A stretch of DNA of 64,000 bases, taken from Owenia fusiformis (taxonomy: Eukaryota; Annelida; Polychaeta; Sabellida; Oweniidae). The DNA is taken from the NCBI GenBank assembly GCA_903813345.2, contig CAIIXF020000007.1:34936538-35000537 (forward strand), given 5' to 3'. A program made the translations under genes and the position numbers. Of this stretch, positions 27,212 through 59,839 are shown one piece after another. How positions within the stretch are numbered: position 1 is the stretch's first letter; every line of letters begins with the position of its first letter. The notes under the pieces were generated by a model. That model saw only the letters and a list, made by a program, of their open reading frames with translations. It was not told where the DNA came from and did not search any database.

Positions 27212-28369
27212 ATGTATTCTACGTCACTAAGTGTTAAAGACATTGCACACAGGGTGCGTGGTTCAACTGCTAATAATTGGTTCACTGACCACACAGCCGA
27301 AGACAATAATGCTGAATATGTTGGTCCTCCCTCACCGAGATGTGGTAGCCCCGAAGGAAAACGGAACGCTTACCTTAGAGGGCACAGAGATAACATTCAG
27401 ACCATCCTAAATGATGGTCCTGGTACGTATCTTGGTCATAAACGATCGTATACAGACCCAAGCCCGATTCCAAGAGTAAAACCAGAAGCTGTAGAGATCT
27501 ATGAATCTCACCAAGGCAGAAAGCTGGCAACAATGATGACCGAATATGGTATGTTGCCATTGAGTGGAAGGCCAGTGGCAAGAATCAAACCAGAGGCACA
27601 AGATCTGTCATATGATCACAAAGGTGGAAGAATGGCGAATCTCCTCAATAACTATGGGAACAATCCTCGCTCGGCAAGACCGGAACCTCGTATTAAAGCG
27701 GAAGCCGAGTCGTCTGCAGAATTAGACAAAGGGAAGCGTATGGACACACTGATACATAGCTATGCTACGATGGGAGTATCAGCACGTGTACCAAGGGTTA
27801 AACCAGAAGCTGAATGTTCAGCTGACCTTGATAGAGGTAAACGAATGGATAAACTTTTACACAAATATCAAAAACAGGAAGAATTTACACCTAGACCCGT
27901 TCCAAGGGTTAAACGCGAAGCGGAGGATAGTGCTGAACTAGATAAAGGTAAAAGAATGGATGGTCTAATTCATAAATACAACAAATTACCACAATCAGCG
28001 AGACCAGTTCCAAGAGTTAAACCGGAGGCAAATGACGTCGCTGAAGCACATAAGGGAAAGAAAACTGAAAAACTACTCCATGAGTACGGCGAATTGGGTC
28101 TCTCAGTTAGGCCAGCACCAAGGGTAAAACCCGAGGCAGAAAGCACTGCTGAAAGAGGACGGGGGATAGTACAGCACCTCTTCCACAAGTACCACCAGTT
28201 GCCTACATCCCCCCGTCCTCAATCTAGAACTAAAGGCGGAGAGTGTAAGACTACTGCCAATAGAGCAAGAGGGTCAATTGATAAACTATGGAAGGAACAG
28301 GGTAGAAGGACGTGTGTCCCTGTACCTGGTGTTCAGTACAAAAAACACGAACGATTGCGGACCTGTTAA
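27212..28369 (+). CDS. Intronless gene for a 36-residue-repeat protein
   Basis: A 385-residue frame without introns. After an N-terminal region of about 85 residues there are about eight tandem repeats of 36 residues, close to P-V-P-R-V-K-P-E-A-E-x-x-A-E-x-x-K-G-K-R-M-D-K-L-L-H-K-Y-x-x-L-P-x-S-A-R. The first and last units are diverged. Charge is strongly basic; there is no signal peptide or membrane segment. I do not recognise the family. The regular basic repeats with a predicted short helix (GKRMDKLLHKY) suggest a scaffold or filament-binding protein, possibly microtubule- or cilium-associated, but this is inference. The start follows an upstream in-frame stop, and a poly(A) signal lies 135 bases downstream. 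Confidence 0.8.
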   Translation: MYSTSLSVKDIAHRVRGSTANNWFTDHTAEDNNAEYVGPPSPRCGSPEGKRNAYLRGHRDNIQTILNDGPGTYLGHKRSYTDPSPIPRVKPEAVEIYESHQGRKLATMMTEYGMLPLSGRPVARIKPEAQDLSYDHKGGRMANLLNNYGNNPRSARPEPRIKAEAESSAELDKGKRMDTLIHSYATMGVSARVPRVKPEAECSADLDRGKRMDKLLHKYQKQEEFTPRPVPRVKREAEDSAELDKGKRMDGLIHKYNKLPQSARPVPRVKPEANDVAEAHKGKKTEKLLHEYGELGLSVRPAPRVKPEAESTAERGRGIVQHLFHKYHQLPTSPRPQSRTKGGECKTTANRARGSIDKLWKEQGRRTCVPVPGVQYKKHERLRTC

Positions 28370-48223: not shown

Positions 48224-51200
48224 ATGGGTTCAGAAATCATGAAATTTCCATTCAAATCCTTTAGCTTGACGATAGGGACGTTAATGCTGGCTCATCTAGC
48301 AATGTGTACATCTGTAGCTGGTTGTCAATGGAATGTTGTAAGTCCCAATAAACCACGGGACAATGTCTCTGTATTGAAAACTGAATCCGCTGCGAATACG
48401 GACGATTGCGCCATGATGTGTGTTTTGACCGATGGATGCCTGCATTTTCAATACAACAAGATAAGTGAAGAATGCCAGTTACTGAGAAGTGAATGGCTGG
48501 AGCCAGGGGTTGATTCATACCCCTCGTCGAACGATTGGACATTATGGGAATTGCAGTGGGGCTGCGGGATGTCAGAGGGTAAGTATATTATGAGAAAAAA
48601 TTTGGGGCTGCGGGATGTCAGTGGGTAATATATAACTACATTATGGGAATTGAAGTGGGGCTGCGGGATGTCAGTGGGTAAGTACATTATGGGAATTAAA
48701 GTGGTGCTGCGGGGTGTCAGTGGGTAAGTACATTATGGGAATTAAAGTGGGGCTGCGGGATGTCAGTGGGTAAGTTCATTATGGGAATTAAAGTGGGAAC
48801 GCGGGATGTCAGTGTGTAAGTACATTATGGGAATTAAAGTGGTGCTGCGGGATGTCAGTGGGTAAGTACATTATGGGAATTAAAGTGGGAACGCGGGATG
48901 TCAGTGGGGGAAGTACATTATGGGAATTAAAGTGGGGCTGCGGGATGTCTGTGGGTAAGTACATTATGGGAATTGAAGTGGGGCCGCGGGATGTCAGTGC
49001 ATGGGTAAGTACATTATGGGAATTAAAGTGGGAACGCGGGATGTCAGTGTGTAAGTACATTATGGGCATTAAAGTGGGAACGCGGGATGTCAGTGTGTAA
49101 GTACATTATGGGAATTAAAGTGGTGCTGCGGGATGTCAGTGGGTAAGTACATTATGGGAATTAAAGTGGGAACGCGGGATGTCAGTGGGGGAAGTGCATT
49201 ATGGGAATTAAAGTGGGGCTGCGGGATGTCTGTGGGTAAGTACATTATGGGAATTGAAGTGGGGCCGCGGGATGTCAGTGCATGGGTAAGTACATTATGG
49301 GAATTAAAGTGGGACTGCGGGATGTCAGTGAGTAAGTACATTATGGGAATTAAAGTGGGGCTCCCGGATGTCATTGTGTAAGTACATTATGGGAATTAAA
49401 GTGGGGCTCCGGGATGTCAGTGAGTAAGTAAGTACAATACGGGAATTAAAGTGGGGCTGCGGGATATCAGTGGGGGAAGTACATTATTGGAATTAAAATG
49501 GGGCTGCGGGATGTCAGTGAGTAAGTAAGTACAATACGGGAATTAAAGTGGGAACGCGGGATGTCAGTGGGGGAAGTACATAGTGGGAATTAAAGTGGGG
49601 CTGCGGGATGTCAGTGGGGGAAGTACATTATGGGAATTAAAGTGGGGCTGCGGGATATCAGTGGGGGAAGTACATTATGGGAATTAAAGTGGTGCTGCGG
49701 GATGTCAGTTTGGGAAGTACATTATGGGAATTAAAATGGGGCTGCGGGATATCAGTGGGGAAGTACATTATGGGAATTAAAGTTGGGCTGCGGGATATCA
49801 GTGGGGGAAGTACATTATGGGAATTAAAATGGGGCTGCGGGATATCAGTGGGGGAAGTACATTATGGGAATTAAAGTGGGGCTGCGGGATATCAGTGGGG
49901 GAAGTACATTATGGGAATTAAAATGGGGCTGCGGGATATCAGTGGGGGAAGTACATTATGGGAATTAAAGTGGGGCTGCGGGATATCAGTGAGTAAGTAC
50001 ATCATGGGAATTAAAGTGGGGCTGCGGGATGTCAGTGAGTAAGTACATCATGGGAATTAAAGTGGGGCTGCGGGATGTCAGTGGGTAAGTACATTATGGG
50101 AATTAAAGTGGAGCTAGTAGGTACATTATGGGAATTAAAGTGGGGCTAGTAGGTACATTATGGGAATTAAAGTGGGGCCGCGGGATGTCAGTGCATGGGT
50201 AAGTACATTATGGGAATTAATCGCTTGTCTCATGGCTGACTACGTCCATTGATCTCAACTAACCCTTTTAAATTCCCCAGCGTTTGCACCATGCCTTTCC
50301 GTTTAACAAGCTTCGTATACCAAGGTATATTCATATTGTTCTAGCTTCCTGCCCAAAGACAGCGCCTTGTCCGTCAGGGTTTGTGTTTTCGAACTGTGGA
50401 TCCTGTTACTGGTTCGAAACAGACTCCCAGCTTGATTACGAGACTGCGAGTCAGAACTGCAGGGACAAATATGGCTCAAGTCTTCTGTCTCTAGAGACCA
50501 AGAAAGAGTTACGTGCAATGGAAGAATATTTGATATCACAAGGTAAGGCTGTATCTATATGACTGTATTTGCACATGACACTGGTGAAAGAGCCGAGCCG
50601 CTGCATAAAATATTGCTTTGTCAATCTTCGGACGTATCATCATTCCAGTAGTTCAATGATTCAACTGCAATTATTTTTGAATATTAAATTTAACGTTGTC
50701 TTTCAAGATGTGCTCCAATTATTTGTAGGGCTTCAAAATTTGGGTGATTTTCTGACCAGTGGTAAAAGTACGGAAAGCGAAAGGGGATATACCGCAGAAT
50801 TTAAAATTCAATGGAGTTTTAACATGGGAGTGATATCACACACCGCGGCCCAGTCAGATATATTTCTGCGCACTTTATCACACTACTATACCTAACACCT
50901 AGAAATGCATAAGATACTTTGTTTGTCTAATTGAATTGTTTAATATATTTTTGAAAGTGCCTTACTAGCATCTAATTTTCAACCGATAAACCATTCATAA
51001 GGAACAGACAAATAAAAACAAATACATAATCATTACTAATAAGCCAAATGGGTTGCTCATGAACACCAAATGCAAGGTATAGTAGTGTGTTTATTTATTT
51101 AATTCACTTTGCACAACGCGCCCCCTGTAATTCATTCAGTGCGCAATTAAAAATTGTTTATGAGTGATATCGCACACCGCGGCCCAGTAAGATCGATTTC

Positions 51201-54200
51201 TGCGCACTTGATTTATTAACACACTCAAAATATCGCGCTGAAGCTTGTATATGCTGGCGCGATGTAAATATAGTTTTCTGTTAATTAATGCCCAACAAGA
51301 AAGGGTAGCACAACGAATTCAACTTTTTTCGAAAGACTGCAGGCTTGACCTGCGAAATTGTGATTTTGGATCACAGTGATGCCTCTAGAGAGGATATCTA
51401 TGAGAATTACAGATTATAGTACGCAGAATTATAAAGTCAAACTGACCTCAAAATGGTAGTAGGCCTATACAGTGTACACTGCCATCTTTCAATAAAGTGT
51501 GTACTACAGACCTTCGTATACAAAATACCAGAATGATTGATGTAATACCTGTATACCATTTCTTCTGGGAGAAGGAAAGTTCCTATATGTATTCCATGGC
51601 CGTAGCCAGGGGGCCTCACCCCCTCCCCCTTGCCAAATATTCGTTCAAAATCATGCAGTTTTTCACCATTCTTAGCACTTTTCGCATGATTTTTTTGCCA
51701 TAACTGTCAAAAAGCTCCCCCTCTTGGCAAAATCTCCCCCTTGGTAAAACCACTCCCCCAGGTTAATCCAGGATACGGGTCTGTATTCTTAGACGAGATT
51801 GTTCAAGAACATAAGGTAGACATAAGTGCCACCTGTTAAAAGCTAGGAGATCTTTTAAGTCAAGTTATTAAGTCATCAATCAGCAGACTGGTAATTGTAT
51901 CCCCCACCCACTTCAAACTCCATACACTAACATACTATTACAATTTTATCTGTGTTTATTTGACTGTAGAAGGTGTACATTCATAGCATTGAATTGCATT
52001 TCATTGCATTGTATTGTATTGTATAGCACATCATTATATTGTATTGTACTGCATTTTATTGTATTGCACTGCATTGTATTGTATTGCACTGCCTTGTATT
52101 CTATTGCATTGTATTGTACTGCATTGCACTGTATTATATTATATTGCACTGCATTGTACTTTATTGCACTGCATTGTATTGTACTGCAGTGTACTACATA
52201 GTATTGCGCTGCATTGTATTGTATTGCACTGCATTATAATGTATTGCACTGTACCACATTGTGTTGCACTGCATTGTATTACACTGCATTGTTTTGAATT
52301 GCACTGCAATATATTGCACTGCACCATATTGTATTGCATTGCATTGAATTGCAGTGCACTGCATTGTATTATATTGCACTGTATTGTATTGCACAGTATT
52401 GTATTGCATTGTCTTGAATTACACTGCATTTTATTACACTGCATTGTATTTTATTGTTGCACTGCATTGTATTGTACTGCAGTGTACTGTATTCTATTAC
52501 ACAGCATTGTTTTGTATTGCACTGTATTGTATTGCATTGTATTGAATTGCACTGTATTGTATTTTATTGCACTGCATTGCACTACATTGTATTGCACTGT
52601 ATTGAACTGCGATGTATTGTATTGCACTGTATTGTATTGCACTGCACTGAACTGCGATGTATTGTATTGCACTGTATTGTATTGCACTGCACTGTATTGA
52701 ACTGCGATGTATTGTATTGCACTGCATTGTATTGCACTGTACCACATTGTATTGCACTGCATTGTATTGAAACGAACTACATTGTAAATGTATTGTATTT
52801 TATTGCACTGCATTGCAATGCATTGTATTGCACTGTATTGAACTGCGATGTATTGTATTGCACTGCATTGTATTGCACTGTACCACATTGTGTTGCACTG
52901 TATTGTATTACACTGCATTGTTTTGTATTGCACAGCAATATATTGCACTGCACCATCATATTGTATTGCACTGCATTGCAATGCACTGCATTGTATTATA
53001 TTGCACTGTATTGTATTGCACAGGATTGTGTTGCATTGTCTTGAATTACACTGCATTTTATTACACTGCATTGTATTTTATTGCAGTGTAATGTATTGTA
53101 TTGCACAGCATTGTATTGTATTGCACTGTGTTGTAGTGCATTGTATTGAATTGCACTGTATTGTATTTTATTGCACTGCATTGCACTACATTGTATTGCA
53201 CTGTATTGAACTGCGATGTATTGTATTGCACTGCATTGTATTGCACTGTACCACATTGTATTGCACTGCATTGTATTGAAATGAACTACATTGTATTGCA
53301 CTGCACGGCATTGTTTTGCATTGTATTGCATTGCACTGCATTGTATTGCATTATATTGCACTGTATTGTATTGCATCGTATTGCACTGTATTTTATTGTA
53401 TTATATTGCACTACATTGTATTGTATCATATTGCACTGCATTTTTTGCATCATATTAAACTGCTTTGTATTGCATCATATTACACTACATTGTATTGCAT
53501 CATATTGTACTGCATTGTATTGCATCATATTGCTATGCATTGTATTGCATCATATTGCTCCGCATTGTATTACATCATATTGCACCACATTGTATTGCAT
53601 CATATTGCACTTCATTGTAAAACATCATATTGCACTGCATTGTATTGCATCATATTCCGTATTTACCATTTCGTTACAGTTTTATTACATAAAATGTTAT
53701 TTATAAGATTGTAATTTTCAAACATTGAAAATATTTTATACAATATCAATTAAAAGATATGAAATGGCCCAAAATAATATATTTTCAATGGAACCCTTTG
53801 CAAGGGTCACTTCAACATAACGCCACGTGTAATCTGTATGCATACGCCCTCTTTTAATGAACATTATCTTTGAAACCATATTAGAATCGAATCTGATAAA
53901 AGTGCGAATGTCCTGGATGTGCTGCGCGCTAGAATCGGGAAATCTCAAAGTTCTCCTCGTTAGAGCCATCAATATTATCCAAAATTGTCATTTCGCTGGT
54001 TCACTCCGCAGTCTTTCGAAAAAAATCAAATTCGTGGTGCCACGAATTTTTATTCGTTATTTATTCACAGATAATCATTTTTTCATCGCGCATTGAATGC
54101 CGGAATTTCTGCGCACTTTATTTTAATTAACTTTGCACAACGCGGCCCCTGTAATTCATTCAGTGCGCGATGAAATCTATCTGACTGGGCCACGGTGTGT

Positions 54201-57200
54201 GATATCACTCCCATGTTAAAACTCCATTCGATTTTGAATTATGCGCATGTCCCCTATCGCTTTCCGTATAAAAGTGACCCAACTACATTGGACTCCATGA
54301 ACTGGGTGTACAACATCGGGGACTACCCAAATAATAACACACTATCGTTTAGAGGTAAAGTACGGAAAGCTATAGGGGACATGCGCATAATTCAAAATCG
54401 AATGGAGTTTTAACATGGGAGTGATATCACACACCGCGGCCCAGTCAGATAGATTTCATCGCGCACTGAATGAATTACAGGGGCCGCGTTGTGCAAAGTT
54501 AATTAAAATAAAGTGCGCAAAAATTCCGGCATTCAGTGCGCGATGAAAAAATAATTATCTGTAAATAAATAACGAATAAAAATTCGTGGCACCACGAATT
54601 TGATTTTTTCGAAAGACTGCGGAGTGAACCAGCGAAATTACAATTTTGGATAATATTGATGGCTCTAACGAGGAGAACTTTGAAATTTCCCGATTCTACC
54701 GCGCAGCACATCCAGGACCATGATGCGCACTTTTATCAGATTCGATTCTAATATGGTTTCAAAGATAATGTTCATTAAAAGAGGGCGTATGCATACAGAT
54801 TACACATGGCGTTATGTTGAAGTGACCCTTGCAAAGGGTTCCATTGAAAATATATTATTTTGGGCCATTTCATATCTTTTAATTGATATTGTATAAAATA
54901 TTTTCAATGTTTGAAAATTATAATCTTATAAATAACATTTTATGTAATAAAACTGTAACGAAATGGTAAATACGGAATATGATGCAATACAATGCAGTGC
55001 AATATGATGTTATACAATGCAGTGCAATATGATGCAATACAATGTGGTGCAATATGATGTAATACAATGCGGTGCAATATGATGCAATACAATGCAGAGC
55101 AATATGATGCAATACAATGCAGTGCAATATGATGCAATACAATGTAGTGTAATATGATGTAATACAAAGCAGTGTTATATGATGCAAAAAATGCAGTGCA
55201 ATATGATACAATACAATGTAGTGTAATATAATACAATAAAATGCAGTGCAATACGATGCAATACAATACAGTGCAATATAATGCAATACAATGCAGTGCA
55301 ATGCAATACAGTGCAAAACAATGCCGTGCAGTGCAATACAATGTAGTTCATTTCAATACAATGCAGTGCAATACAATGTGGTACAGTGCAATACAATGCA
55401 GTGCAATACATCGCAGTTCAATACAGTGCAATACAATGTAGTGCAATGCAGTGCAATAAAATACAATACAGTGCAATTCAATACAATGCAGTACAACACA
55501 GTGCAATACAATACAATGCTGTGCAATACAATACATTACACTGCAATAAAATACAATGCAGTGTAATAAAATGCAGTGTAAATCAAGACAATGCAATACA
55601 ATACTGTGCAATACAAAGCAATGCAGTGTAATACAATACAGTGCAACACAATATGATACAGTGCAATACAATGCAGTGCAATACAATACATCGCAGTTCA
55701 ATATAGTGCAATACAATGTAGTGCAATGCAGTGCAATAAAATACAATACAGTTACAATGTAGTTCATTTCAATACAATGCAGTGCAATACAATGTGGTAC
55801 AGTGCAATACAATGCAGTGCAATACAATACATCACAATTCAATATAGTGCAATACAATGTAGTGCAATACAGTGCAATAAAATACAATACAGTGCAATTC
55901 AATACAATGCAATACAACACAGTGCAATACAATACAATGCTGTGCAATACAATACATTACACTGCAATAAAATACAATGCAGTGTAATAAAATGCAGTGT
56001 AAATCAAGACAATGCAATACAATACTGTGCAATACAAAGCAATGCAGTGTAATACAATACAGTGCAACACAATGTGGTACAGTGCAATACAATGCAGTGC
56101 AATACAATACATCGCAGTTCAATACAGTGCAATACAATGTAGTGCAATGCAGTGCAATAAAATACAATACAGTTACAATGTAATTCATTTCAATACAATG
56201 CAGTGCAATACAATGTGGTACAGTGCAATACAATGCAGTGCAATACAATACATCACAGTTCAATACAGTGCAATACAATGTAGTGCAATGCAGTGCAATA
56301 AAATACAATACAGTTACAATGTAGTTCATTTCAATACAATGCAGTGCAATACAATGTGGTACAGTGCAATACAATGCAGTGCAATGCAATACATCGCAGT
56401 TCAATACAGTGCAGTGCAATACAATACAGTGCAATACAATACATCGCAGTTCAGTGCAGTGCAATACAATACAGTGCAATACAATACATCGCAGTTCAAT
56501 AAAGTGCAATACAATGTAGTGCAAAGCAGTGCAATAAAATACAATACAGTGCAATTCAATACAATGCAATACAATACAGTGCAATACAAAACAATGCTGT
56601 GCAATAGAATACAGTACACTGCAGTACAATACAATGCAGTGCAATAAAATACAATGCAGTGTAATAAAATGCAGTGTAATTCAAGACAATGTAATACAAT
56701 ACTGTGCAATACAATACAGTGCAATATAATACAATGCAGTGCACTGCAATGCAATGCAATACAATATGGTGCAGTGCAATATATTGCAGTGCAATTCAAA
56801 ACAATGCAGTGTAATACAATGCAGTGCAACACAATGTGGTACAGTGCAATACATTATAATGCAGTGCAATACAATACAATGCAGCGCAATACAATGTAGT
56901 ACACTGCAGTATGCAGTGCAATACAGTACAATATAATGCAATAGAATACAATGCAGTGCAATACAATACAATGCAGTGCAATACTATAAAATGCAGTACA
57001 ATACAATACAATGATGTGCTATACAATACAATACAATGCAATGAAATGCAATTCAATGCTATGAATGTACACCTTCTACAGTCAAATAAACACAGATAAA
57101 ATTGTAATAGTATGTTAGTGTATGGAGTTTGAAGTGGGTGGGGGATACAATTACCAGTCTGCTGATTGATGACTTAATAACTTGAACAATCTCGTCTAAG

Positions 57201-58503
57201 AATACAGACCCGTATCCTGGATTAACCTGGGGGAGTGGTTTTACCAAGGAGCTTTTTGACAGTTATGACAAAAAAATCATGCGAAAAGTGCTAAGAATGG
57301 TGAAAAACTGCATGATTTTGAACGAATATTTGGCAAGGGGGAGGGGGGTGAGGCCCCCTGGCTACGGCCATGGAATACATATAGGAACTTTCCTTCTCCC
57401 AGAAGAAATGGTATACAGGTATTACATCAATCATTCTGGTATTTTGTATACGAAGGTCTGTAGTTACTTTATTGAAAGATGGCAGTGTACACTGTGTACT
57501 ACCATTTTGAGGTCAGTTTGACTTTATAATTCTGCGCACTATAATCTGTAATTCTCATAGATATCCTCTCTAGAAGCATCACTGTGATCCAAAATTACAA
57601 TTTCGCAGGTCAAGTCTGCAGTCTTTCGAAAAAAGTTGAATTCGTTGTGCTACCCTTTCTTGTTGGGCATTTATTAACAGAAAACTATAATTACATCGCG
57701 CCAGCATATACAAGCTTCAGCGCGATATTTTGAGTATGTTAATAAATAAAGTGCGCAGAAATCGATCTTACTGGGCCGCGGTGTGCGATATCACTCATAA
57801 ACAATTTTTAATTGCGCACTGAATGAATTACAGGGGCGCGTTGTGCAAAGTGAATTAAATAAATAAAGTGCGCAGAAATATATCTGACTGGGCCGCGGTG
57901 TGTGATATCACTCCCATGTTAAAACTCCATTGAATTTTAAATTCTGCGGTATATCCCCTTTCGCTTTCCGTAGTAAAGTACTATACACGAGGCGAATCTT
58001 GATATTAAAATAATACAAAAAGTTACAGTTTTTAAATTATGGTAAATTAATAATCACACACATTCCATAACACATAATAATGGTCAATGGATCCAAAATT
58101 ATCATATACTAAAACGGCGTTTTAGCGCTAATTGAGTACTCATTTCAATAAATATCAGTACTATATGAGCACTAATGACATGGTTAGGTGCATGTTTTAG
58201 TACTAAATGAGTACACATATCATGAGTGATGAAATAGTGCTAATTTTATTGATTTTTCATTACTCAATGAGCACTCATGAGCACTCATACATATGCCGCC
58301 GAGTACTCAGTTAGTATACTAATGTTCGTCTGAGAATATCTACCATTTGGACATTTTCAGGTTGGACAACGGATTACGTGTCTTATGAAACTAATCAAGG
58401 TTCGTGTTTAAAACTTATCTTTGAGGAAGGGGAAATGGACCTCAAAATGTTTTTAACACCATGGGAACTACAAGAATTTTCAATTTGTGAACTGAAACTT
58501 TGA
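48224..58503 (+). CDS. Secreted PAN/C-type lectin gene, exon 3 disrupted
   Basis: Exons: 48224-48578, 50345-50542, 50729-50768 plus 54275-54354 (one exon split by a transposon), 58361-58503. With the insertion removed all phases close and the product is 271 residues. Exon 1 encodes a signal peptide (internal Met at 48239 is an alternative start) and a PAN/apple-like module (CAMMCVLTDGCLHFQYN). Exons 2-4 encode a C-type lectin domain: CPSGFVFSNCGSCYWF, then YETASQNCRDKYGSSLLS, NWVYNIGD, SCLKLIF and FSICEL. The EPN/QPD and WND calcium-sugar motifs are absent, so sugar binding by the usual mode is doubtful. As assembled, translation runs into element 1 and stops at 50895, losing the C-terminal half of the lectin domain. 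Probably a pseudogene allele or a polymorphic insertion. Confidence 0.8.
48560..50215 (+). repeat. 46-bp minisatellite made from an exon-intron junction
   Basis: About 35 tandem units, close to GTAAGTACATTATGGGAATT plus AAAGTGGGGCTGCGGGATGT plus CAGTGG. The template is visible in the gene itself: the last 40 bases of exon 1 and its donor (ATTATGGGAATTGCAGTGGG ... GGGTAAGTA). Many early units keep a consensus GTAAGT donor; later units often read GGGGAAGT instead. Larger sub-blocks (for example 48840-49110 and 49120-49370) are duplicated as higher-order repeats. Confidence 0.95.
50769..54268 (+). mobile_element. 3.5-kb TACGGAAAGC element inside lectin exon 3
   Basis: Terminal inverted repeats of about 110 bp start TACGGAAAGCGA and include GGAGTTTTAACATGGGAGTG and CACACCGCGGCCCAGT. 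The target duplication TAAAAG is at 50763-50768 and 54269-54274. The interior holds a pentamer array (51980-53660) and sequence near 51590 with GCCGTAGCCAGGGGG. No transposase was seen, so it is non-autonomous. Confidence 0.85.
51980..53660 (+). repeat. Degenerate 5-bp satellite array (TATTG/CACTG)
   Basis: About 1.7 kb built from five-base words such as TATTG, CATTG, CACTG and TACTG. Because the units rarely form stop codons, long open frames occur on both strands; they are artefacts. Confidence 0.95.
54361..57972 (-). mobile_element. Second, inverted copy of the TACGGAAAGC element at the exon 3 donor
   Basis: Reverse-oriented relative of 50769-54268 with the same termini. The target duplication GTAAAG at 54355-54360 and 57973-57978 is the splice donor hexamer itself. 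The left copy still follows AGAG, so the donor is preserved and the element sits entirely in the intron. With element 1 it forms a palindrome of about 7.2 kb with a 92-base spacer. Confidence 0.85.
54975..57060 (-). repeat. Pentamer array of the inverted element
   Basis: Same five-base satellite in the opposite orientation (CAATA, CAGTG words), about 2.1 kb, longer than the array in element 1. Within it a block of roughly 320-350 bp recurs (for example from GTTACAATGTAGTTCATTTC near 55750, 56170 and 56310). Confidence 0.9.
57979..58360. repeat. Last lectin intron with GAGTACT repeat cluster
   Basis: 58120-58325 repeats GAGTACTCAT, AGTACTAAATGAG and GAGCACTCAT words as at 24020-24215. The intron ends with the acceptor TTTTCAG. 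Confidence 0.5.
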
Positions 58504-59839
58504 ATCCCTTGCTTTTATTATCTAATGTTACGCGTCAGTGATGGGAATTGGAGAATTTTGACGAAACAAATTTGATCTGTCAAATACTCTACCCTTGGAG
58601 CAACTTAAGCTAGTGAGTCAATTTGCTCCCATCACCAGGGCAGGAACAAATAGCATGCAATATTGTCAAAAATGGATATTCAAGGCTGAACATCTTTTGA
58701 GTTGGTTTGTAACTTTATGGATCAAAATGGTCAGTGACAAATGGAGCGCCTTAAGTCTATTTTTATAGACACGAGGACGAACGTTTATATAATTGTATAT
58801 ATAATATATTTTTATTGATTATTGATGTGAGAATTTCCAGTCATTGTTTGTTAATAATATACTTGAAGCCATGTGTAGTTTTCATGTTCTGTACTTGTAT
58901 TATTACCCATGTCGTCACAATGTGAAACAAGAATTTCTATCCATTTAAAGATAATGCCATGGGTAGTGTGTGTTTCAAGTGCAAAATCTATCTGCTCACT
59001 AGTGAACGTGAGGGGGAGGAGAGCTAAGGCTCAGTGTAAACCAGTCCCCACCCCCATGGGCTCCAAAAGATTGAGTCCCGCACAATTGCTGGACCTAAAA
59101 ACTGCTCTTCCCCACATAGATTGGGCAATTTAGATACCAAACAGGCAATATTGGGCATGTTTTGTTTGGCTTTATTGTTTTTCAAAAGTTTGACTTTTGA
59201 TAAATTTCCGCGCAAGCACGGACACTTTTAGATTCCCTACCCTCTTGATTATCGGGATTACCCCTTGTGTTTCGTTAAACATGCCCTTGACATTATTAGG
59301 GAGTTGGTTTAACATGCAAAAAATGTTTGCCTCCCCCTACCAAAAGCTGGCTAGGGACATATTGTACATAAATGACCTTTCCATATATCATTGCACAATG
59401 GTCTCCTGATTTCTTATTTTTGGGGTTCTACTGACGCAATAAAACAGTGAAATGGGCAAAGACAAAGGTAAACGAGCATCATTAATTGTTCGATCACAGA
59501 CAGTCACAAGTAACAGTTCTCCACTCCCGTCAACAGGATCTGATATAGGTGGCACTATGGTCAACTCCTGTATATGCCCTTTCGGTAATATCACGTGAAC
59601 AAATACGTAAGTTGTTGAGCAAAGTAAGCTTCGTAGTTGCTGTGAATGTTGGGTGATACCATGAGGCCAATTTAACAATCAAAAAGTAAGATAGAATCAA
59701 TATGGAGTTCTATTGCAGCTCATTCCTCCACAACTAAAACACATTTACATTTATCATTCATAACGCTAACCACATAATGGGCTAAATTCAGGTGAATTCG
59801 AAGCCAGTGCTGATTTTGTAAGGTCAGTACTATCCGATT
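58504..59839. other. Intergenic between lectin and patatin genes
   Basis: The only notable frame is on the minus strand at 59678-59388. It encodes a composition that looks protein-like (GHIQELTIVPPISDPVDGSG, then VTVCDRTINDA) and follows a possible TTCACAG acceptor. I do not recognise it; it may be a transposon relic or an unlinked exon. Confidence 0.4.

Follow-up and report, generated by a model that had tools for sequence, protein, structure and literature searches.

The stretch of DNA analysed here (the window, 64,000 nucleotides of the annelid Owenia fusiformis, C7:34936538-35000537) contains a lectin-like gene whose third exon has been hit by two copies of one transposon family. Element 1 interrupts the exon, and element 2, its inverted twin, sits at the splice donor (Table 1). 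Each copy has an exact target-site duplication (TSD) of its own, TAAAAG around element 1 and GTAAAG, the donor hexamer, around element 2. The target sites start 86 nucleotides (nt) apart in the undisturbed exon, and the elements are now 92 nt apart. A preliminary description of the window, made from the sequence alone, had reported a 3.5-kb element in the exon with the duplication TAAAAG and a second, inverted copy duplicating the donor hexamer; both reports were borne out.

If both elements and one TSD each are deleted, the two parts of exon 3 (50729-50768 and 54275-54354) join to 120 nt with phase 1 at the start and at the end. Exons 2, rejoined 3 and 4 then form a single open frame down to the stop, as the preliminary description had also claimed. 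To judge by the frame and the duplications, this deletion would probably repair the exon. With element 1 in place the frame reads 41 element-coded residues and then stops, so the first insertion truncates the product as predicted. The second insertion preserves the donor, again as predicted: GTAAAGTAC is intact because the element starts with TAC, as the original flank did. Since exon 3 is 120 nt long with equal phases, skipping it would keep the frame. The assembled allele should yield a truncated product or an in-frame skip of 40 codons.

The product resembles a C-type lectin domain, but that name, taken for granted at first, has become a weak label. A Pfam search of the product returned no family at E<=0.1. 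The best match among solved structures (phmmer) is LY75, with an E-value of 0.0021 for the whole sequence and of only 1.4 for the best single domain (residues 10-54); CLEC9A matches at E 0.17. We found no close paralogue of exon 3 in the genome (best other match E 0.011), and hence the empty exon cannot be demonstrated from a second copy. Searching with two weak paralogues by tblastn gave nothing useful, and phmmer on them gave weak alignments spanning the exon join. A 47-bp minisatellite of about 24 copies (49003-50115) lies just upstream of the lectin-like exons.

Table 1. Features of the window, in window positions, and units of the same family mentioned in the text
Feature	Position	Strand	Details
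Exon 2, lectin-like gene	50342..50542	+	ends in phase 1, donor GTAAGG
Exon 3, first 40 nt	50729..50768	+	upstream acceptor TTTGTAG; last 6 nt are the first TSD copy
TSD TAAAAG of element 1, left copy	50763..50768	+	
Element 1	50769..54268	+	A end left, B end right; 3500 bp; IS3EU-like, probably non-autonomous, satellite core
MITE of another family, within element 1	50879..51089	.	211 bp, 5-bp duplication TTTAT
Satellite core of element 1	51983..53650	+	ATTGCACTGC-like; limits approximate
TSD TAAAAG of element 1, right copy	54269..54274	+	
Exon 3, last 80 nt	54275..54354	+	between elements 1 and 2
TSD GTAAAG of element 2, left copy	54355..54360	+	splice donor hexamer
Element 2, inverted twin of element 1	54361..57972	-	B end left, A end right; 3612 bp
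TSD GTAAAG of element 2, right copy	57973..57978	+	
Exon 4	58361..58505	+	acceptor ATTTTCAG; ends ...SICELKL stop
Adjacent pair, window			92 bp apart, inverted, B-B
Adjacent pair, L003			127 bp apart, inverted, A-A
Adjacent pair, L004			59 bp apart, direct
Adjacent pair, L006			13 bp apart, direct
Adjacent pair, L013			534 bp apart, inverted, B-B
L021	C1:48221463-48224137		palindromic B-B unit, 600-bp arms, outer TSD ATGTAAT
L129	C8:29890549-29894759		palindromic B-B unit, 600-bp arms, outer TSD GTTTTC

Both elements start with TACGGAAAGC and finish with GCTTTCCGTA. Every copy has two types of end: A (TACGGAAAGCGAAAGGGGATATACCGCAG), outermost in the window pair, and B (TACGGAAAGCKATAGGGGACATGCGC), which faces inwards. 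In element 1 the A and B ends form a 108-bp inverted repeat of 88% identity. The middle of a copy is a satellite of ATTGCACTGC-like repeats. Element 1 additionally carries a 211-bp miniature inverted-repeat transposable element (MITE) with the ends CACACTACTATACC and GGTATAGTAGTGTG. The MITE is absent from element 2, and the other full A ends compared show no gap at its position.

The termini place the family close to IS3EU. In fungi, IS3EU families have 6-bp TSDs, terminal inverted repeats (TIRs) longer than 30 bp and ends of the form TAYGG..CCRTA (PMC12730594). All four termini in the window read TACGG..CCGTA, which agrees with this form, both window TSDs are 6 bp long, and the inverted repeat of element 1 is longer than 30 bp. 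By its ends and its mostly 6-bp TSDs the family would thus fit IS3EU as defined from the fungal families, and it is best explained as a recently active, non-autonomous DNA transposon of this type.

A pattern search of the genome with up to 3 mismatches found 124 B ends and 112 A ends; a tip pattern outside the A and B types matched two places. Our locus table contains 100 of the 124 B ends, 100 of the 112 A ends and one end read in L001. They belong to at least 92 loci (46 simple, 26 other multi-end and 20 single-end), and these counts are lower bounds. Both ends were read in all 46 simple copies; the reading covered all but one of the 26 multi-end loci (C122) and all but two of the 20 single-end loci (C8:38824248 and C8:38855228). 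The listed simple A-B copies are 1945-4203 bp long (mean 2951), with a TSD of exactly 6 bp in 35 of the 46, of exactly 7 bp in 8 and of neither length in 3. Scanning by eye the frames of long and single-end copies and of a copy on C12, we recognised no IS3EU transposase; no profile search was run. That C12 copy (C12:5014715-5028309; 13.6 kb, TSD CGACCCG) was considered as the autonomous partner and rejected: it holds about 10 kb of other DNA and, by eye, no transposase.

The two copies in the window are not sisters. They are 97.8% identical over aligned bases but are separated by 17 gaps totalling 846 bp, to which the 211-bp MITE contributes. In non-satellite parts they diverge by 1.67%, against a median of 1.72% for all pairs of 25 copies (29 rows minus L020n, L021bb, L022bb and L121; L017, one of the 25, may be made of ends from two copies, and omitting it alters none of the pair counts). 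Over 1374 compared bases the twins have no minority variant in common. Private variants number 14 in element 1 and 5 in element 2; the base at position 11 of the B tip differs, and so does the length of the satellite. The larger number of private variants, together with its own MITE, suggests that element 1 is the older of the two. With their separate, exact TSDs, the copies support what the preliminary description had called two independent hits of one family, that is, two separate insertions.

Other close pairs behave similarly. Five of them (window, C5, L003, L004 and L013; the first L006 member lies outside this set) were tested as a group against a star tree, and their mean residual is not low (resampling P 0.29). 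None of the five pairs has a variant unique to it. Minority variants of wider distribution are common to C5a and C5b (three) and to L013a and L013b (one), none of them confined to the pair.

Beyond the single window, what stands out is that the family lands beside or inside its own copies. The counts that follow cover insertions in and around the family only and were assigned by hand from printed junction tables. Five side-by-side pairs have a TSD for each member and non-family DNA between them, and lie 13-534 bp apart (Table 1). At least 13 copies, complete at both ends and flanked by an exact TSD of their own, are nested inside another copy (L006, L007, L008, L009, L010, L011, L012, L014, L015, L019, L020, L115 and L130). 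Nested cases with only one end assigned, such as L005, L016, L017, L018, L128, L132, L133 and L144, were kept out of the 13. For 124 copies placed at random, the Poisson expectation is 0.018 for adjacent pairs (within 600 bp) and 0.046 for nested copies. Even without the window pair, the remaining four adjacent pairs have a probability of 5e-9.

The nested sites are close to the tips. In 12 of the 13 copies the site is at most about 460 bp from a tip (distances taken to the host tip or from a reference copy), and in L006 it is about 10 bp inside; the exception is L009, which lies in the satellite. The tip bias has P 1e-5 with the whole copy as target and P 0.0017 with the non-satellite DNA only. 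One site, 182 bp from the A tip, is a hot spot inside the element: L005 (at 5880) and L015 (at 359) carry insertions of opposite orientation there, in different host copies. Two frames were labelled by eye, a gag-like one beside one end in L123 and a reverse-transcriptase-like one inside a copy in L115.

At larger distances the association fades. Past 12 kb, the placement of loci is close to random (88 of the 89 loci on the 12 large contigs entered this analysis, two single-end entries being one element), and hence the attraction is mainly short-range. The short range would speak for capture at resident ends and against hot domains or ordinary local hopping. Two pairs of copies have matching left flanks: C12:5215059 and C12:5292349 (144 of 149 bases), a segmental duplication counted among the pairs at 12-300 kb, and C11:11139504 and C11:11148332 (132 of 132), likewise a segmental duplication, inside one 12-kb locus.

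The preliminary description had offered a target preference or a linked event as the cause of the close hits. A sequence preference exists, but it is weak: among the 35 simple copies whose TSD is 6 bp long, 119 of the 140 bases at TSD positions 2-5 are A or T, compared to 68% in their flanks. It is too weak to be the entire cause of the close hits, and this explanation was ruled out. The linked event, taken as one copy begetting the other, does not agree with the different B tips and the absence of a shared minority variant.

The rest of the genome suggests that facing pairs can travel jointly. Another two copies, at C5:20193580-20200284, stand 67 bp apart in the same A-B/B-A geometry as in the window, and the only exact TSD, ATAAAT, is at the outer ends; no other pairing of ends gives an exact 6- or 7-bp match. 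The 67-bp spacer occurs at one other place in the genome, 100% identical, at C5:31545172-31545238, 11.3 Mb away. The 1301 bp read around C5:31545172 are free of elements, and the limits of the spacer are those expected after two insertions. The arms diverge by 1.24% and differ by 1.16 kb in length. The C5 unit is therefore a composite transposon carrying 67 bp of host DNA, with a single outer duplication and a traceable passenger. On the simplest reading, two copies inserted at 31.5 Mb, the outer A ends moved the whole, and the pair at the source was lost or is absent on the assembled haplotype. Alternatively, the spacer may have been captured through faulty gap repair. The two window elements, flanked by separate TSDs, have not moved together.

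Like ends may work together in other arrangements too. L021 and L129 are B-B units with outer duplications, which suggests as much; both have B arms at both ends, and the satellite switches strand in mid-unit.

How could two copies come to lie in one exon? Long, near-perfect arms (98% identity over one 340-nt stretch) classically give rise to template-switch inverted duplications and to assembly artefacts alike. Yet each element has an exact TSD of its own, the arms are 2.2% different with 17 gaps and private variants on both, and the exon between them still reads in the gene's orientation and frame. Since the twins share no minority variant and differ in B-tip base and satellite length, we consider a duplication or an artefact highly improbable. 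Equally improbable is that element 1 is an introner, spliced out so that the gene stays intact. The left TSD does stand in a donor-like context (G|GTAAAAG) and the right one ends in AG, but splicing between them would remove 7 nt of the exon and break the frame. The sole GT for an intron of exactly the element plus one TSD (50768) pairs with AA instead of AG. None of the GT/AG pairs available at the junctions rebuilds the exon.

Two further explanations address the clustering itself. Other DNA transposons are known to hop locally, and the second copy may have been derived from the first, or from its sister chromatid, and re-inserted close by; nested and adjacent pairs would then be short-range transposition of one lineage. 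The short distances between copies, the minority variants common to C5a/C5b and L013a/L013b and a mild excess of pairs at 12-300 kb (10 against 4.9 expected) are what such hopping would produce. The star-tree residual of the five pairs, the lack of pair-unique variants, and the B-tip base and 846 bp of gaps that separate the window twins are not, and we regard local hopping as unlikely, if the most serious competitor. Less probable still is a bias of survival combined with hot spots, in which copies scatter widely but persist mostly in harmless DNA such as older copies, with open regions supplying the rest. Transposons nested within transposons are indeed common in general (PMC3903597). However, at about 3 kb each the 124 copies account for less than 0.1% of the genome, yet at least 13 complete copies are nested in them. 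The side-by-side hits lie in non-family DNA, and the hit in the window is a coding exon. If the expectation is raised 20-fold, the probabilities are still 4e-5 and 2e-11.

We propose instead that two different copies inserted one after another, into exon 3 and then into its donor. Transposase sitting on a resident copy's ends may capture incoming transposition complexes, and captured insertions would land within about 0.5 kb of the resident tip, outside or inside the copy. In the window, element 1 would have come first and then attracted element 2. The resulting A-B/B-A geometry, which encloses 92 bp of exon and donor, may be a composite transposon in waiting. We give this explanation as a whole (different copies, sequential insertion, end capture and a composite in waiting) a probability of about 0.65.

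Several points weigh against it. The tethering is solely our inference, and neither a transposase nor an autonomous copy turned up in the by-eye frame scan. The family is star-like, which leaves little power to exclude an early local hop, and the pairs at 12-300 kb exceed expectation, with no single bin significant among three bins tested singly. Outside the satellite the tip bias is modest (12 of 12, under a simple model). L011 and L115 share a host site and might be a single compound that was moved, although a divergence of 1.3% and 456 bp of gaps separate their nested copies. The tandem head-to-tail dimers with one shared TSD (L005 GTTTTAG, L007 CTGGTG, L016 ATAAAC) need unequal exchange or the like instead of plain insertion, and L007 is counted as one event among the 13 nested copies.

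There are bacterial transposons that avoid inserting near themselves. One such element is phage Mu (PMC7350765). Sequential capture by resident ends would be the opposite of such target immunity. In its widest form, which we put forward tentatively and with less than even confidence, resident ends attract further copies within about half a kilobase, facing pairs form repeatedly, and these pairs act as composites through equivalent ends (A-A or B-B), picking up and spreading short pieces of host DNA, including exons. The lectin exon would then be the step before mobilisation and C5 the step after. Nesting and macrotransposons are known behaviours. The family combines them with an unusually strong, short-range self-attraction and a visible route to the transport of host DNA. 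Among the titles and abstract openings searched, with most subscription journals out of reach, none describes self-association in IS3EU.

If this is true, a eukaryotic family that seeks its own ends would have a natural way of forming composite transposons and transporting exons, and both stages of composite formation are visible within one assembly. Long palindromes in an assembly can be real and built of two independent copies, and clustered copies need not imply duplication.

Elsewhere in the window, a 385-residue open frame (27212-28369) contains repeated PRVKPEAE-like units; its Pfam match, PF10791, is sub-threshold only.

Compared with known systems, the family resembles IS3EU in its TACGG..CCGTA ends, its TIRs of more than 30 bp and its 6-bp duplications. 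It differs in that no transposase was seen in the frames read by eye, 8 of the 46 simple copies have a 7-bp TSD, the satellite core is large and the self-association is strong. In maize, nearby Ac copies act as a unit, carry host DNA and can excise or re-insert as macrotransposons; the cases described arose by reversed-ends transposition and re-replication (PMC9910405). Nearby copies also act as one unit with host DNA here; in contrast to Ac, an A-B/B-A palindrome has two different copies as its arms and a passenger of 67 bp. The SaTar arrays of Mutator-like elements (MULEs) in guayule and rice consist of copies that adjoin without interruption; they are unrelated elements, at microsatellites and uniformly non-nested (PMC5907723). 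Copies are also side by side in our case, but they belong to one family and are both adjacent and nested, near their own tips. Galileo, a Foldback-like element, has long, repetitive TIRs (PMC3573991). The B-B units L021 and L129 are similar in their long inverted arms and outer TSDs, whereas the usual copy is an asymmetric A-B with a 108-bp inverted repeat, and palindromic units are few. Finally, three self-insertions of a laboratory construct have been mapped for the P-element (PMC4744444). They are likewise insertions of a transposon into its own copy, but here it is a natural family that does so, and genome-wide.

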